Of a stretch of DNA of 64,000 bases, positions 14,420 through 20,362 are shown piece by piece (the stretch's first letter is position 1; the number at the start of each line of letters is the position of its first letter). Origin of the DNA: Flavobacterium tagetis (GTDB lineage: Bacteria; Bacteroidota; Bacteroidia; Flavobacteriales; Flavobacteriaceae); contig NZ_JAERSF010000005.1 of NCBI RefSeq assembly GCF_016735615.1, positions 62,001 to 126,000 of the forward strand, in the 5' to 3' direction. Position numbers and translations under genes: made by a program. Below the pieces are notes generated by a model, which was not told where the DNA came from, ran no database searches, and saw only the letters and a program-made list of their open reading frames with translations.

Positions 14420-15607
14420 CTAGATTGATTTAAACGCAATCACAAACGCAATAACCGTTATGATAATTCCGAACATAAAAAAGTTATAAGCAATTCGGAG
14501 TAAATTATATTTTCGCTGTAAAACCAATCCCAAGTAATACAAATCTTTGATCATGGTTGAGTATAGATAATCACGATCTTTCATCATTTCGTTCATTGCC
14601 CAATCATAATCTTCGAGAGGCATTTTGTAGAAATTTCCGAAAAACATCAGATTCACTTTTTTAGCTTCAACATCGTCTCTCGTAAAAAAACCAGAAGTTA
14701 CTTTTGGACGTGTCGAAAGAATGGCAAAAATAATTGTAATCACACTCGACATCAGCATAATAAACGTCGGCACAACCAAATGCGCATTTTTTGGACTGTC
14801 TAATTTTGGAATAATAGACGATAAAGCAATCGAGATGATAATTGCATTTACAGACAATAAAATATTGGCTTTACTATCAGCAATTCCGCTTAAACGCGTG
14901 TGATTCCCGAGAGTGACACGGAATAGAGTATCAATTCCGCGATCTGGTTTTTCAGCTTTTTCAGCTTTCTCTTTCTTTTTATTTTCTTCTTCGAGTGCAG
15001 CGGCAGCTTTCAATTCCTGTTTGTTTATTTTTTTCTGAATTAATAATAGATTTTTTTCTTTCAGGGGCTGCCATTTTCTCAACGCATAATCTGTATAAAA
15101 TCTGTGTTTATTCAATAAAAAATTAAGGTTTTCTCTAGTCCATTCTTCATTAGAGAAACTCACAATTCCTGCATTTTTTAATTCCAAACGCAGTAATTCG
15201 CAAGTTGTGGCATATTCAGCTCCCATCAAATGAGCATAATCTGCATCTCTGATGATTTTTTCTAAGTGCGTTCTAGGTTCATATTCTTTAACTGTAGCCA
15301 AAATTAAACTTGAAACTAGAGCTATAAATTCTTCCGATTTTCCTTTTTCTCGCAAAAAGTCAGCAGCGATTTCAGTACTTTTCTTTTCATGATTTTCATA
15401 TCCTTCGATGTATCCCGTATCATGAAACCATGCAGCAATCAAAAGTGCTTCCTTATCCTCACCGCTTACATCTTCTTTTTTGCAAAGTTCTTTAACTGCA
15501 GTAACAACTGTAAAAGTATGATTAAAATTATGGTAAGAATATAAATTAGAAAGTTTATCTTTGAGTAAATTACTCACGAAATCTTCGGATTGTTCTATTA
15601 GATTCAT
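14420..15607 (-). CDS. HD-domain phosphohydrolase fused to Pycsar-effector-like membrane domain
   Basis: 395 residues in three parts. (1) HD domain, about 20-140: His26/His30 (YHNFNHT), His62-Asp63 (AAWFHDTGYIEGYENH) and Asp121 (IIRDADYAHLMG), the metal-binding set of HD phosphohydrolases that cut nucleotides such as cyclic or guanosine phosphates. (2) A lysine/glutamate-rich linker, about 185-222. (3) A C-terminal domain, about 223-395, with three membrane helices (about 246-266, 279-297, 373-393) and the GIADSKANILLSVNAIIISI signature of the Pycsar effector PycTM (DUF5706). PycTM kills phage-infected cells by membrane disruption when a cyclase makes cCMP or cUMP. No cyclase gene is next to it. 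The fusion could couple nucleotide turnover to the membrane. It is divergent from the 15634 gene, 26 bp apart. Confidence 0.8.
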   Translation of the reverse strand: MNLIEQSEDFVSNLLKDKLSNLYSYHNFNHTFTVVTAVKELCKKEDVSGEDKEALLIAAWFHDTGYIEGYENHEKKSTEIAADFLREKGKSEEFIALVSSLILATVKEYEPRTHLEKIIRDADYAHLMGAEYATTCELLRLELKNAGIVSFSNEEWTRENLNFLLNKHRFYTDYALRKWQPLKEKNLLLIQKKINKQELKAAAALEEENKKKEKAEKAEKPDRGIDTLFRVTLGNHTRLSGIADSKANILLSVNAIIISIALSSIIPKLDSPKNAHLVVPTFIMLMSSVITIIFAILSTRPKVTSGFFTRDDVEAKKVNLMFFGNFYKMPLEDYDWAMNEMMKDRDYLYSTMIKDLYYLGLVLQRKYNLLRIAYNFFMFGIIITVIAFVIAFKSI

Positions 15608-15633: not shown

Positions 15634-18600
15634 ATGAAATTGTTTTTGGATAATCATTTTATTGCTAAGATTAAAAACTGTTTATTAGCAATAATGGCAC
15701 TATTCATCGTTTATTCCTGTGCAACGCGCAAACCTCAATACGGAAAAAATGTTAGTGCCAACGAAACAGAAAACGCAACAGATACCATAAAAATTGCACA
15801 TACCTTTTTCCTTGTTGGTGATGCTGGAAATGCTGATGAAGAACAGGCGCAGCAAACTCTGGAACTTCTGCATCAAAAGCTTAAGAAAGCAAGCAAAAAA
15901 TCAACACTTCTTTTCTTAGGTGACAACATTTACCCGAAGGGTTTCCCTAGCGATAAGCATCCAGAAGACAAGGCTTTAGCAGAGACCAAACTAACTAATC
16001 AATTAAAATTGACTGAAGGCTATAAAGGAAAAACAGTTGTAATTCCTGGAAATCATGATTGGTATAGCGGCATCAAAGGCCTAGAACGTCAGGCTGATTT
16101 TGTAACGAAATATTTAAATGATAAAAAAGGTTTTCTTCCGAGAAAATCGTGTCCGATTGAAAATGTAAAAATAGACAGCACGACTACTTTGATAGCTGTT
16201 GATAGTGAATGGTTTCTTGAAGACTGGAATGATCACCCAACTATCAATGATAATTGCGAAATTAAAACCAGAGAAGCTTTTTTTGAAGAGCTTGAAGGTC
16301 TTTTAAACAAAAATCAAGAAAAGACAGTGGTTTTAGCCATTCACCACCCGTTATTAAGTAACGGAACACATGGCGGACAATTTTCATTAGAAAAACAATT
16401 ATTTCCTTTAGAGCAAAAAATTCCGCTTCCAGTAATTGGTTCGTTTATTAATTTATTGCGAAAAACTTCTGGCGTAAATCCGCAGGACATTCAAAACAAA
16501 CAATATACGATTTATGCTAAAAGAATTAAAACGCTTTTGCAAAAGCAGAAAAATGTAATTGTAGTTTCTGGTCACGATCATAATCTGCAATATATCAGCA
16601 AAGAAAATATTCAGCAGATTATCAGTGGCGCAGGATCAAAATCGGAAGCTGCTAGAGCGATTAGTCCGTATGATTTTTCATATGGCGGAAATGGTTATGC
16701 AACACTAACTATGTTTAAAAGCGGAGATGCAAAAGTTTCTTTCTATGGAAATGAAAACGGCAAAGAAAAGCTACTTTTTGAACGTGAAATTATAAAGGCC
16801 AAAGAAATTAACTGGGCTTCAGATATTCCGAATAAGTTTCCAGCAAAAGTGACTACTTCGATTTATTCTCCAAAAATGACACAAAAAGGTGCATTCCACA
16901 GATTTTTATTCGGTCAGCATTATAGAAAATATTATAGTATGCCAATTGAAGCTACAACTGCTACGGTTGATACTTTAAAAGGAGGTTTAAAACCTATTCG
17001 CGAAGGCGGAGGACATCAATCTGTTTCTTTGAGAATGTCTGATCCTCAAGGGCGTGAATATATCATGCGTGCGATGAAAAAAAGTGCGACCGTATTTTTG
17101 CAGTCGGTGGCTTTTAAAGATCAATATGTGGTAAATGAATTTGAAAAGACCTACGCTGAGGATTTCTTATTTGATTTTTACACGACTTCTCATCCTTATT
17201 CTTCTTTCGCTATCGGAAGCATGTCTGATCAAATTGGACTTAGACATACTAATCCAATTTTATACTATATTCCTAAGCAAAATGGTTTGGGTGAATTTAA
17301 TGCGAGTTTTGGAGACCAATTATATATGGTTGAAGAAAGACCCGCAGATAATCATCTTGATGGTAAAAATTTCGGAAAACCAAGCAACATCATCGGAACT
17401 GATGATATGATGCTGAATCTTCATAAAGATGAAAAATATACTGTTGATGAAAAAGAATATATCAAAGCGCGTTTGTTTGATATTCTTTTAGGAGATTGGG
17501 ATCGTCACAGTGATCAATGGCGTTGGGCTGAATACAAAGAAGATGGAAAAGTAATTTACAGACCAATTCCGCGTGACCGTGATCAGGCTTTTGTAAAATA
17601 CGACGGCGCTTTGCTTTCACTTATAATGAATATGCCTCCTCTTCGTCATATGCGAACTTTTAAAGGAGACAGAATCAATGTTAAATGGCTTGGAAGAGAA
17701 CCTTACCCAATGGATTTGGCATTTCTAAAAACTGCTGGAGAAAAAGAATGGGTTGAACAAGCCAAATACATTCAGGAAAACTTGACAGATTCAGATATCG
17801 ATTTGGCTTTCAAAAATATGCCAAAAGAAGTTCAAGACGAAACAGTTGATGAAATCAAGACAAAACTAAAAAGCAGAAAAAAAGATCTCCAAAAATATGC
17901 TCGTGAGTATTCTGATGTGCTAGATAAAACCGTTATGATTGCGGGAACAGACAAAAAAGACAAGTTTGTTTTAAATCATAATGTAAAGAAAGGAATTGAA
18001 ATTCAGGTTTTCAGAATTAAAAAAGAAGGCGATGAATTGCTTTACACTAAAAACGTAACAGATGATAAAACCAAAAATCTTTGGATTTACGGACTAGACG
18101 ATAATGATGTTTTTGAAGTAAAAGGAAACGAAAAATCTAGCATTAAAATTCGTTTGATCGGAGGTCAAAACAATGATACTTATAACATTGAAAATGGAAG
18201 AAAGGTTATCGTTTACGATTTCAAATCAAAAGAAAACACATACAATCTCGATTCTAAAACACAAACACAGCTTACAGACGATTACGAAGTTAATGCCTAT
18301 AATTACGAAAGACCAAAATATAATGTAGTTTCTGGCCTTCCAAATATTGGATATAATCCTGATGATGGGGTAAAAATGGGAGTTAATGTAAATTATACCG
18401 TTAATAATTTCAAACAAAATCCGTACACGCAAAGACATATTTTTAATGCTTTCTACTATTTTGCGACTGGTGGTTTAGAATTTAATTATGCAGCACACTT
18501 CCCTGGTTTATTAGGAAAATGGGTTATTGATGTCGAATCATTATATACGACTCCTAACTTTGCCATGAACTATTTTGGTTACGGAAATGAATCTCAATAC

Positions 18601-19365
18601 GACGATGATTTAGGAATGGATTACAATCGTGTTCGTATTAGAAAATTTAATGCTTCGGGTGCCATTCGTCACGTTGGACGCTATGGAAGTGAATTTAGCA
18701 TTCAACCCATTTTCCAGAGAATGACCGTTGAAGATACTGAAAACAGATATATCAATATTCCAGGAATTGTAAATCCTGATGTATTTGACAGTCAGAATTT
18801 TGGAAGCTTAAAAGTTAAATATGTATTTAAAAATTCAGATTTTACTGCGAAACCAACTTTAGGAATGTATTTTATGATTGCAGGAACTTGGACGACAAAT
18901 CTTGACGAAACAAAAAAGAATTTTCCAACGCTTGAAAGTATCTTAGGATTTACTCACAAAATTGATCACAACGGAAAACTGATATTGGCTACTTACGTAA
19001 AAGGAAAAGCTATTTTTAATAATAATTATGAATTCTACCAAGGTGCTTCTTTAGGTGGTGATACCGATTTGAGAGGTTATAGAAATGAGCGTTTTTTAGG
19101 AAGTTCGTATTTCTCTCAAAGCTCTGATCTGCGTTTAAGCATTGGGAAAATCCGCAAAACAATTGTTCCTTTTACGTATGGAATTTTAGGTGGTTTTGAC
19201 TACGGTAGAGTTTGGCTTGATGGCGAAGATTCTAAAAAATGGCATCAAGATTACGGCGGCGGACTTTGGCTGAATGCCATAAATGTTATTACGGCAAGAA
19301 TCTCTTATTTCAAATCTCCTGACGAAATTGGAAGGGTGATTTTTGGAGCGGCATATAGCTTTTAA
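15634..19365 (+). CDS. Lipoprotein: metallophosphatase + kinase-like region + outer-membrane barrel
   Basis: 1243 residues. Lipobox IVYSC with Cys29. A calcineurin-like phosphoesterase (about 55-400) has all five motifs: GDAGN 62-66, GDNIYPKG 96-103, GNHDWYSG 139-146, His237-His238 and GHDH 313-316, so it should bind two metals and cleave phosphoesters outside the cytoplasm. The middle (about 440-760) has a kinase-like order: YIMRAMKK 476-483 (candidate ATP-lysine strand), GDWDRHSDQWRW 620-631 (catalytic-loop-like) and RPIPRDRDQ 643-651 (DFD-like); this is my inference. The last third (about 905-1243) is a BamA/surface-antigen type barrel ending in Phe. Large phosphoesterase-barrel proteins occur in Flavobacteriia; the substrate is unknown. 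It is divergent from the HD-PycTM gene. Confidence 0.8.
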   Translation: MKLFLDNHFIAKIKNCLLAIMALFIVYSCATRKPQYGKNVSANETENATDTIKIAHTFFLVGDAGNADEEQAQQTLELLHQKLKKASKKSTLLFLGDNIYPKGFPSDKHPEDKALAETKLTNQLKLTEGYKGKTVVIPGNHDWYSGIKGLERQADFVTKYLNDKKGFLPRKSCPIENVKIDSTTTLIAVDSEWFLEDWNDHPTINDNCEIKTREAFFEELEGLLNKNQEKTVVLAIHHPLLSNGTHGGQFSLEKQLFPLEQKIPLPVIGSFINLLRKTSGVNPQDIQNKQYTIYAKRIKTLLQKQKNVIVVSGHDHNLQYISKENIQQIISGAGSKSEAARAISPYDFSYGGNGYATLTMFKSGDAKVSFYGNENGKEKLLFEREIIKAKEINWASDIPNKFPAKVTTSIYSPKMTQKGAFHRFLFGQHYRKYYSMPIEATTATVDTLKGGLKPIREGGGHQSVSLRMSDPQGREYIMRAMKKSATVFLQSVAFKDQYVVNEFEKTYAEDFLFDFYTTSHPYSSFAIGSMSDQIGLRHTNPILYYIPKQNGLGEFNASFGDQLYMVEERPADNHLDGKNFGKPSNIIGTDDMMLNLHKDEKYTVDEKEYIKARLFDILLGDWDRHSDQWRWAEYKEDGKVIYRPIPRDRDQAFVKYDGALLSLIMNMPPLRHMRTFKGDRINVKWLGREPYPMDLAFLKTAGEKEWVEQAKYIQENLTDSDIDLAFKNMPKEVQDETVDEIKTKLKSRKKDLQKYAREYSDVLDKTVMIAGTDKKDKFVLNHNVKKGIEIQVFRIKKEGDELLYTKNVTDDKTKNLWIYGLDDNDVFEVKGNEKSSIKIRLIGGQNNDTYNIENGRKVIVYDFKSKENTYNLDSKTQTQLTDDYEVNAYNYERPKYNVVSGLPNIGYNPDDGVKMGVNVNYTVNNFKQNPYTQRHIFNAFYYFATGGLEFNYAAHFPGLLGKWVIDVESLYTTPNFAMNYFGYGNESQYDDDLGMDYNRVRIRKFNASGAIRHVGRYGSEFSIQPIFQRMTVEDTENRYINIPGIVNPDVFDSQNFGSLKVKYVFKNSDFTAKPTLGMYFMIAGTWTTNLDETKKNFPTLESILGFTHKIDHNGKLILATYVKGKAIFNNNYEFYQGASLGGDTDLRGYRNERFLGSSYFSQSSDLRLSIGKIRKTIVPFTYGILGGFDYGRVWLDGEDSKKWHQDYGGGLWLNAINVITARISYFKSPDEIGRVIFGAAYSF

Positions 19366-19370
19366 AAAAA

Positions 19371-19512
19371 GTTGCTAAGATGCTGAAATGCTAAGGTTCT
19401 AAGTTTTTTAGCTCTGAGTTTAAAAAAAATAGCCACGAATTCACGAATTTAAATTAAATCATTCGTGAATTCGTGGCTAACTTTTTTCTTTAAAACTTAG
19501 AATCTTAGAGTC
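19371..19512. repeat. Nested hairpins between convergent genes
   Basis: Outer arms: GTTGCTAAGATGCTGAAATG... (19371-19410) against AAAACTTAGAATCTTAGAGTC (about 19492-19512). Inner arms: perfect 18 bp, AGCCACGAATTCACGAAT at 19431-19448 and its complement at 19461-19478, followed by a short T run. The word CACGAATT is doubled within the arm. The inner hairpin could terminate both converging genes. Confidence 0.8.
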
Positions 19513-20362
19513 TAAACTCATAAACCTTTCCTCCTATTTTGTTCGTTTTTTCGTCTGCTATAAGTAAGGTGTTGTTGTCTTTAAAAACGATAGCTTCTTT
19601 TTGTGAGAAGTGATTTAAGCTTAATTCCGTTTGAGTTCCTTTATGATATAAATCTCCTTTGAAGTTTTTAAACAAAAGCACTTTATCATGGCTTAATAAA
19701 GCTACTTTTTTTCCGTCAGGACTTATTGTTGCACTGGTCAGCACACAATGATTGTAATTATTGCAAGTTTTAAATTCTCCAATTTTAACTGCTTTTTGAG
19801 TTCCTGCAGCATTTTTTATTTTGTATATAAAAGCTGTTCCGTCAAAACCTTTACTTCTATTTTTGGTAAAAAGATAAAAATAACCTCCTTGTTCAAAAAA
19901 ACCTTCAACATCGAAAAACATTTCTTTTTTCTTTGGTGGAAATTCTTTTTGCTCGGGATACGAAAATGAAATTTTATATTCAGCTTTAGCTAAATCATTA
20001 TTCAATTGATTTTTTGCGACTTTATAAATACACAAATCTCTTCTTTCGTTATCATTATTTCCAAAATCTCCAATGTAGATGTTTCCAGCTTTATCTTTTG
20101 TAATGTCTTCCCAATCGACATTTGTAGCATTAGAAATCGTGATTGCTTTAGCTAATTTACCTTTAGAATCAAGGGCATAAATAGCATTTTTATTTCCACT
20201 GTCTTCTAAAGTATAAAGCGTTTGCGTTTCGGGAAAGTAAGTTATTCCAGAAACTTCTTTTAATTTTTTCGGAAGCGAATAAAGTTCTTTTAAATCAGAA
20301 CCAGATTGTTTCTGGCAAGCTAATAAAACTATAGAAACAACTACTAAAAAAGATTTTTTCAT
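19505..20362 (-). CDS. Lipoprotein with beta-propeller-like repeats (SdiA-regulated-like)
   Basis: 285 residues. Lipobox VLLAC, Cys16. The mature part is read as a six-bladed propeller-like protein: repeated strands ending in GxxxxxDxxG or GDFGNN (for example SGITYFPETQTLYTLEDSGN, DWEDITKDKAGNIYIGDFGN, VLTSATISPDGKKVALLSHD). The order EVSGI...D.ED...IGDFGNN resembles the SdiA-regulated/esterase-like propeller families. Catalytic function unknown; other members have been suggested to bind or hydrolyse phosphoesters, not shown here. Convergent with the phosphatase-barrel gene across the nested hairpin. The kinase-like gene upstream is separated by 98 bp with an inverted repeat, so it is probably transcribed separately. 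Confidence 0.65.
   Translation of the reverse strand: MKKSFLVVVSIVLLACQKQSGSDLKELYSLPKKLKEVSGITYFPETQTLYTLEDSGNKNAIYALDSKGKLAKAITISNATNVDWEDITKDKAGNIYIGDFGNNDNERRDLCIYKVAKNQLNNDLAKAEYKISFSYPEQKEFPPKKKEMFFDVEGFFEQGGYFYLFTKNRSKGFDGTAFIYKIKNAAGTQKAVKIGEFKTCNNYNHCVLTSATISPDGKKVALLSHDKVLLFKNFKGDLYHKGTQTELSLNHFSQKEAIVFKDNNTLLIADEKTNKIGGKVYEFRL

Follow-up and report, generated by a model that had tools for sequence, protein, structure and literature searches.

The stretch analysed here, hereafter the window, comprises 64,000 nucleotides of the Flavobacterium tagetis genome (assembly GCF_016735615.1, 5.1 Mb; contig NZ_JAERSF010000005.1, positions 62,001–126,000, forward strand). At 15634–19365 on the plus strand it carries a single open frame that, by the open reading frame listing and its translation, encodes a protein of 1243 residues, in which a signal sequence is followed by a calcineurin-like phosphoesterase, a central domain with a predicted kinase-like fold, a beta-rich linker and a putative Omp85-type barrel. 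Among the best 80 of 229 relatives, matches span at least residues 1–1225 with best-segment identities of 66–98%, and all titles are Flavobacterium or Flavobacteriaceae. Of the 296 genomes sampled from the phylum, 112, belonging to 61 of 139 genera, contain the central region at E ≤ 0.001, and the genome of the window has it once. Because of the near-full-length relatives and the wide spread of the central region, the 1243-residue frame cannot be attributed to chance.

Loci are referred to by the labels of this analysis (L009, L126 and so on), the window itself being L089. Those used to compare residues, architectures and neighbourhoods were chosen by hand from the 296-genome table to span architectures, not at random; one batch (L219–L238) includes the weakest matches on purpose, and some genomes contribute two or three loci. 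Three alignments were used: A1, with 69 rows, omits the Flavobacterium loci L009–L088 and L089–L095, and A2 and A3 use 72 and 54 of the 80 Flavobacterium loci, respectively. Conservation was counted over 86 aligned domains, namely the window and 85 from the hand-picked loci. The tree of these 86 domains has six long branches, one of them beside the window row, and an arbitrary root.

The central domain (about residues 425–765; 16906–17928, +) was delimited by AlphaFold2, Foldseek, VIA-align and family conservation. In the window protein this region has no Pfam match above cut-off and no NCBIfam family. None of 69 diverse members matches NCBIfam there at 0.001, and with Pfam at E 1 or better the 25 families listed, of 38, each match at most three of the 69. 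An AlphaFold2 model of residues 400–895, built from 73 Flavobacterium sequences, reached a mean predicted local distance difference test score (pLDDT) of 74.6 and a predicted template modelling score of 0.79, with pLDDT < 50 in four stretches (60–63, 89–112, 250–285 and 483–496 in model numbering). When VIA-align re-ranked Foldseek's 1000 best chains against this model, CotH came first (Z 13.3, root-mean-square deviation (rmsd) 3.9, 249 aligned residues), followed by type II phosphatidylinositol 4-kinase (PI4K-II; 12.0), CtkA (11.8), phosphatidylinositol 3-kinase (PI3K) gamma (10.1), HipA (10.0) and the Fam20-type Golgi casein kinase (9.4). These values exceed the typical best Z of 7–8 that the tool quotes for models without a clear match, and the 50 best VIA-align matches listed are, by title or general knowledge, all proteins that we take to be kinase folds. 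Foldseek itself returned seven matches against the PDB at E 0.001 or better (five CtkA chains, Rio2 and MSMEG_1954), the best being CtkA at 3.9e-7; CotH is not among its 50 best matches listed, and the CotH match comes from VIA-align.

The secondary structure of the model runs through strands, a hinge-like strand, a helix, the DWDRH loop, two strands and PRDRD, an order consistent with a kinase, and both structure searches point to the two-lobed fold of the kinase-like (PKL) superfamily. The earlier note had proposed a Fam20-, CotH- or HipA-like kinase fold for this region, and the model supports that proposal, its best matches being CotH, PI4K-II, CtkA, PI3K, HipA and the Fam20-type kinase. 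That the central motifs fall into this order by chance was set aside, since the fold speaks against it.

Family conservation marks four blocks within the domain. A glycine-rich segment, GGL.P...GGG.Q.SL (residues 450–466; 16981–17031, +), is a candidate nucleotide loop, with G451 kept in 81, G458 in 76, G459 in 78 and Q462 in 74 of the 86 domains. The block YIMRAMKK (476–483; 17059–17082, +) lies at the end of a predicted strand and offers K483 (81/86) as the candidate ATP lysine, together with R479 (76/86). The block GDWDRHSDQWRW (620–631; 17491–17526, +) would be the catalytic-loop equivalent, with D623-x4-Q628, by conservation and by alignments with the CotH, HipA and CtkA loops that are all weak; its residues D621 (83/86), D623 (76/86), R624 (81/86), H625 (72/86), W629 (83/86) and W631 (83/86) are widely kept, and position 628 is Gln in 77 and Asn in five. 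The last block, RPIPRDRDQ (643–651; 17560–17586, +), provides D648 (78/86) as the putative metal-binding Asp, from conservation and the CotH alignment, and a second Asp, D650 (76/86). Further conserved positions are E567 (81/86), R613 (84/86), D616 (85/86) and G658 (86/86). D514, kept in 67 of 69 sequences, falls in a helix that is predicted with moderate confidence, and K483 may have its acidic partner there.

On recomputation, the motifs at 476–483, 620–631 and 643–651 lie where the earlier note had placed them, and the three aspartates whose conservation it had set as a test of its kinase reading (D621, D648 and D650) are conserved at the counts given above. Judging from the CotH and HipA alignments, in which scores are weak, the catalytic Asp is likelier D623 than D621, and with CotH the metal Asp is D648. 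Profile comparison with hhalign, against profiles of 17 CotH, 7 HipA, 4 Pkinase and, as a negative control, 7 phosphoesterase frames, was used for residue register only. Against CotH (E 0.03) it places D621 and D623 on the CotH K-D-I-D and D648 on the Asp of the CotH W-D-F-N, and an hmmsearch of the PDB with the family profile aligns the CtkA DRH loop with that of the window protein (E 0.41) with the metal Asp one column off. The choice of D623 is not firm, because four sequences in which it is replaced by Ser or Gly (one of L124, one of L125, L205 and L206) retain D621, as well as K483, D648 and D650; D621 thus stands as the alternative. The N-lobe Lys, catalytic Asp and metal Asp typical of the PKL superfamily can be recognised by conservation, with the CotH register at a weak score, and K483, D623 and D648 are kept together in 71 of 86 domains.

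Membership of the named families was rejected in each case. CotH (PF08757) does not match the window protein, and the best of the 69 members, the only one to match, reaches E 0.019, short of the model cut-off. HipA_C (PF07804) matches neither the window protein nor anything else in its genome, and Fam20C (PF06702) has no match in the window protein and one among the 69 members (E 0.001). The CotH spore-coat kinases (5jda, 5jd9) are among the closest known proteins, being the best structural match and the best of the four profile comparisons, with the loop and the D-x-D/N in register; they differ in sharing only 15% identity in the structural alignment, and the window protein lies outside the two PF08757 matches of its genome. 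Type II PI4-kinases score Z 11.3–12.0 over 236–254 residues and PI3K and VPS34 about 9–10, at 7–13% identity and with no sequence-level match reported in the PDB profile search; type II PI4-kinases and PI3K are eukaryotic lipid kinases inside the cell. CtkA and HipA, whose DRH-type loops align with that of the window protein, are not known to have a barrel or a phosphatase, and the Fam20-type casein kinase (4kqa, 4kqb) is a kinase of the secretory pathway.

The kinase-like domain occurs in several architectures. Across 81 loci, 41 encode the phosphatase-kinase-barrel form, 30 a kinase-barrel form and 8 the kinase-like domain without a barrel, and two (L126 and L127) have three separate adjacent genes, so that 38 of 81 carry the domain without a phosphatase. 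For L126, there is a match above cut-off to PF00149 in the phosphatase gene and to PF01103 in the barrel gene, and none in the kinase-like gene. Lipoboxes are present in the stand-alone phosphatases of both L126 and L127 and in the L127 kinase-like protein, and its L126 counterpart has one if translation begins at a later start; five kinase-only proteins of about 425 residues (L119–L123) have an N-terminal hydrophobic segment rather than a lipobox. Because of these lipoboxes and segments, the domain on its own is also predicted to be exported or membrane-anchored. On the tree, the phosphatase-kinase-barrel label changes at least eight times on well-supported branches; the kinase-like domain is mobile, and its combination with the barrel is the core, to which the phosphatase is an optional partner.

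In two genomes, the second copies L201 and L202 have lost six of the seven phosphatase ligand positions and keep K483, D623 and D648, and the first copies of the same genomes (L116 and L117) keep both residue sets. L205 and L206 have lost four of the seven ligands and D623 too, and L140, L156 and L158 two or three ligand positions; at the positions checked, the first copies L112, L116 and L117 show no loss. Natural controls are at hand in the unfused operon and in those paralogues whose phosphatase ligands have been lost. Barrel-less kinase-like genes also stand side by side, three at L125:7126–12151 and two at L124:7433–10778, in two genomes under one genus label. Five plasmid records contain a relative (three from Hymenobacter, one each from Persicobacter and Parabacteroides), annotated as a hypothetical protein in four and with no gene listed there in the fifth; on one, a Hymenobacter monticola plasmid (L243, 3791–5209), the kinase-like gene lies 3' of an RND (resistance-nodulation-division) efflux pair and 5' of a two-component system and a PAP2 phosphatase. 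Among viral contigs, 18 pattern matches for relatives were found and none was confirmed.

Upstream of the kinase-like domain, the protein begins with a signal sequence (residues 1–29; 15634–15720, +) that, read directly, ends in a lipobox-like V-Y-S-C29. The Cys29 reported by the earlier note is at that residue, within SCA (28–30), but the lipoprotein is putative: Tyr at −2 is unusual, and the Cys is absent from some relatives. Many relatives have a similar lipobox Cys, clearer in several; L152, L155, L157 and most kinase-barrel proteins have a plain signal without it. The phosphoesterase (residues 58–316; 15805–16581, +) was assigned by Pfam Metallophos (PF00149), which covers that range at E 4.3e-12 and 47.3 bits against a cut-off of 21.5; two further Pfam matches in the window protein, to domains of unknown function, are below cut-off. 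Its five calcineurin-like motifs, GDAGN (62–66), GDNIYPKG (96–103), GNHDWYSG (139–146), HH (237–238) and GHDH (313–316), were recovered at the residues first reported. The nearest solved structure is the type 5 tartrate-resistant (purple) acid phosphatase (TRAP), by a whole-sequence E of 4.6e-6 to which no single stretch suffices alone, and the blocks GDN.Y, GNHD and GHDHNLQY align between the two proteins. A Tyr in GDN-x-Y and a GHDHNLQ-type block are hallmarks of purple acid phosphatases; the window protein has both (Y100, kept in 37 of 44, and GHDHNLQ). The seven phosphatase ligand positions are intact in 37 of 44 sequences, including the window protein.

Downstream, a beta-rich linker domain (about residues 766–890; 17929–18303, +) is predicted by DSSP of the AlphaFold2 model after model residue 366. 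The same analysis predicts strands only, with no POTRA-like helices between the kinase-like domain and the barrel. Linker residues 815–850 contain a conserved GL-x-GDD-x-F ... IGG-x-x-x-D, slightly reminiscent of a single RTX-type repeat. The putative Omp85-type barrel (about residues 899–1243; 18328–19362, +) ends in Phe, the last residue of the protein. For the C-terminal barrel that the earlier note had described, NCBIfam Omp85_fam matches residues 1048–1231 (E 5e-19), but at 69 bits the match falls far short of the curated cut-off of 200, and Pfam found no Omp85 (PF01103) match in the window protein. Among relatives, PF01103 is above cut-off in the separate barrel gene of L126 and in the kinase-barrel proteins of L130 and L137.

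The gene is flanked by two genes on the minus strand. A divergent neighbour (14420–15607) encodes an HD phosphohydrolase with a PycTM membrane domain (PF18967, E 1.3e-36; PF01966, E 1.2e-10), and a convergent one (19505–20362) a protein of the SdiA-regulated family with a lipobox-like LLAC (PF06977, E 1.1e-8, above cut-off; Phytase-like, E 1.4e-4, below cut-off). PF18967 and PF06977 each have this single match in the 5.1-Mb genome at E 0.001. All 80 Flavobacterium loci have the HD-PycTM gene next to the fusion gene and divergent from it, and the SdiA-regulated gene was found in 78. The start codons of the HD-PycTM and fusion genes are 26 bp apart (window:15608–15633), a spacing shared by 57 of the 80 loci, and the promoters of the pair probably lie inside coding sequence. 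Beyond the SdiA-regulated gene, a 350-residue protein (window:20461–21513, −) contains GDMRAYNYVIVPI...IRPIDFDQQ, which by eye resembles the loop and D-x-D of another kinase-like fold; it has no Pfam match at 0.01.

Across a wider set of families the association recurs. Within 5 kb of 71 barrel-fused loci (22 family labels) we found PycTM genes at 35 loci (16 labels), SdiA-regulated genes at 26 (14), polyphosphate kinase genes at 16 (8) and SixA-like genes at 14 (7), and 43 of the 71 have at least one of the four; the last two kinds were identified with profiles each built from a single member, and one example of each was checked by Pfam. Where an SdiA-regulated gene lies within 300 bp, it is upstream and on the same strand in 21 of 24 cases. 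In L203, L204, L155 and L157, and in L221 with the kinase-barrel form, one strand carries HD-PycTM, polyphosphate kinase, the SdiA-regulated gene and the fusion gene in that order; in the window genome, two polyphosphate kinase genes are on another contig. The neighbourhood link is strong in several lineages and not universal. PycTM is named for Pycsar effectors. As a recurrent chromosomal neighbour with an HD domain (35/71; Pfam run on four), it looks like housekeeping rather than defence, and a defence role for the protein was set aside, as the PycTM domain sits in the neighbour only. By clustering, a gene of the adenylate cyclase-TPR type lies near the fusion in L145, L148, L149, L130 and L133, with a Pfam check on L145.

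Part of this architecture has been described. The main text of Heinz and Lithgow 2014 (PMC4104836) reports, under the name 'Metallo', a subfamily of Omp85 proteins in which PF00149 is joined to the barrel, terms it a metalloprotease and describes it as conserved at genus level only, in contrast with the occurrence of the kinase-like domain across our sampled genomes; the word kinase is absent from that text. Judging from this description, the subfamily probably includes the family of the window protein. The 'metalloprotease-Omp85' label is to be corrected, because Pfam names PF00149 a phosphoesterase. PlpD, a patatin-POTRA-Omp85 protein in the same text, shares the combination of an exported enzyme and an Omp85 barrel; its enzyme differs, and it has a POTRA domain, of which none is predicted in our model. 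The POTRA that precedes the barrel in BamA/TamA-type Omp85 proteins is likewise absent from the modelled window protein, as it is from the 'noNterm' Omp85 proteins of that text (PMC4104836). A Legionella kinase survey (PMC9758233), in the portion that concerns us, groups FAM20 with CotH and names no phosphatase-kinase-barrel protein. For phosphate-starved F. johnsoniae, the phosphate-related genes in Table 1 of PMC8115612 include a single PF00149 protein, encoded in the PUSI locus, and PUSIII contributes a gene resembling polyphosphate kinase. Among the titles and abstracts listed by our literature search on the phosphatase-kinase-Omp85 combination, none describes a kinase-like domain in such a protein.

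We read the window protein as an outer-membrane protein in which a phosphatase and a kinase-fold domain, joined to a barrel, move phosphate on and off a component of the envelope, and we put the probability of this reading at roughly 0.6. The export signals, the domain order, the kinase-like fold of the model, the conserved active-site-like residues and the recurring neighbourhood were computed directly. Presumably anchored by a lipid and by its barrel, the protein would carry two phosphate-handling domains outside the cytoplasm, in the order purple-acid-phosphatase-like phosphoesterase, kinase-fold domain, beta-rich linker and Omp85-type barrel without POTRA. The kinase-like cleft, through K483 and D648, would bind a phosphate donor with metal, as metal-nucleotide or in another form, and would use D623 or D621 to move phosphate onto a protein, lipid or glycan of the envelope; the phosphatase would take it off again, from that substrate or a related one. 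A role in phosphorus-related envelope physiology is suggested by the association with genes for polyphosphate kinase, SixA-like phosphatase, HD-PycTM and the SdiA-regulated protein.

Several observations weigh against this reading. On the structural side, the model derives from 73 close homologues, and its confidence is low around K483 and D650 (pLDDT 60 for the K483 block, 64 for the D623 block and 79 for the D648 block, with D650 at the edge of a stretch below 50), the top Foldseek match has TM-scores of 0.34/0.54 and an rmsd of 7.7, and a full-length model (pLDDT 53.6) is too poor to give the domain arrangement. In profile comparisons, the CotH alignment reaches a probability of just 1.7%, the scores of HipA (E 0.3) and Pkinase (E 0.75) are no better than that of the unrelated phosphoesterases used as a control (E 0.41), and the PDB profile search yields no significant kinase and ranks a non-kinase (E 0.26) above CtkA. 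Catalytic loops usually carry Asn where most members here have Gln. The lipid anchor is not universal among relatives, 28 of the 71 barrel-fused loci and 10 of 10 loci without a barrel fusion lack all four neighbours inside 5 kb, and among the selected loci of Table 1 in PMC8115612 no row shows both PF00149 and an Omp85 domain. The mechanism is weakest at the donor, because ATP is not known to be available in the periplasm; the polyphosphate link hints at a donor other than ATP. In a more specific version, a kinase of the CotH/PI4K-II group, exported and joined to an opposing phosphatase in an outer-membrane barrel protein, would reversibly phosphorylate the Bacteroidota envelope as part of a polyphosphate-linked gene island, drawing not on cytoplasmic ATP but perhaps on polyphosphate or an extracellular nucleotide; this seems to us improbable.

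At least one of K483, D623 and D648 is lost in 15 of the 86 domains (eight from the weakest-match batch, seven not), and for this reason some members may be inactive. These include a kinase-barrel sub-clade with Arg at 648 (L138, L224, L225 and L229). Taken with the Gln in the loop and the periplasmic ATP problem, such losses speak for a pseudokinase, in which the domain would serve for binding or as a scaffold, sensing a nucleotide or a phosphorylated ligand and controlling the phosphatase or the barrel. We judge this unlikely, though worth serious consideration, given that all three residues are jointly kept in 71 of 86 and that L201 and L202 retain them even though their phosphatase ligands are lost. 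Kinase-barrel members with degenerate catalytic residues are found at L137:5476–8115(+), L129, L227, L228 and L230; that of L137 has as its tandem partner a copy in which K483, D623 and D648 are all kept, an arrangement like that of pseudokinase-kinase pairs.

A kinase fold alone does not fix the chemistry, and SelO is a kinase-fold enzyme that transfers AMP. The domain could thus transfer something other than the terminal phosphate of ATP, such as AMP, or phosphate from polyphosphate, and polyphosphate kinase genes within 5 kb at 16 of 71 loci, operon-like and in one direction in L203, L204, L155, L157 and L221, would fit the latter; PPK1 polyphosphate is cytoplasmic, however, whereas the window protein is predicted to be exported, and we give this possibility a slim chance. 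Slimmer still is the chance that the barrel is a type Vd-like translocator that displays enzymes on the surface, with only the phosphatase mattering, for phosphate scavenging, and the centre a spacer: the Omp85-type barrel, the PlpD precedent (PMC4104836) and a TRAP-like phosphatase with intact ligands speak for it, but 38 of the 81 loci have the kinase-like domain and no phosphatase, the residues of its cleft are conserved, and no such protein appears in the phosphate-starvation table. A simple phosphate-starvation enzyme was likewise set aside for want of a matching row in that table, which covers selected F. johnsoniae loci whose locus tags were not mapped to this gene (PMC8115612).

The central domain looks like a new, unlabelled family of the kinase-like superfamily, and the literature we found covers half of its architecture: the PF00149-Omp85 fusion had already been reported in the main text of PMC4104836, and the kinase-like part, its standalone and barrel-only forms and the three-gene version are new. 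The family is present in 112 of 296 sampled genomes of the phylum and yet has no Pfam or NCBIfam model. If active, it would constitute a reversible phosphorylation system built into the outer membrane and genetically linked to polyphosphate metabolism.

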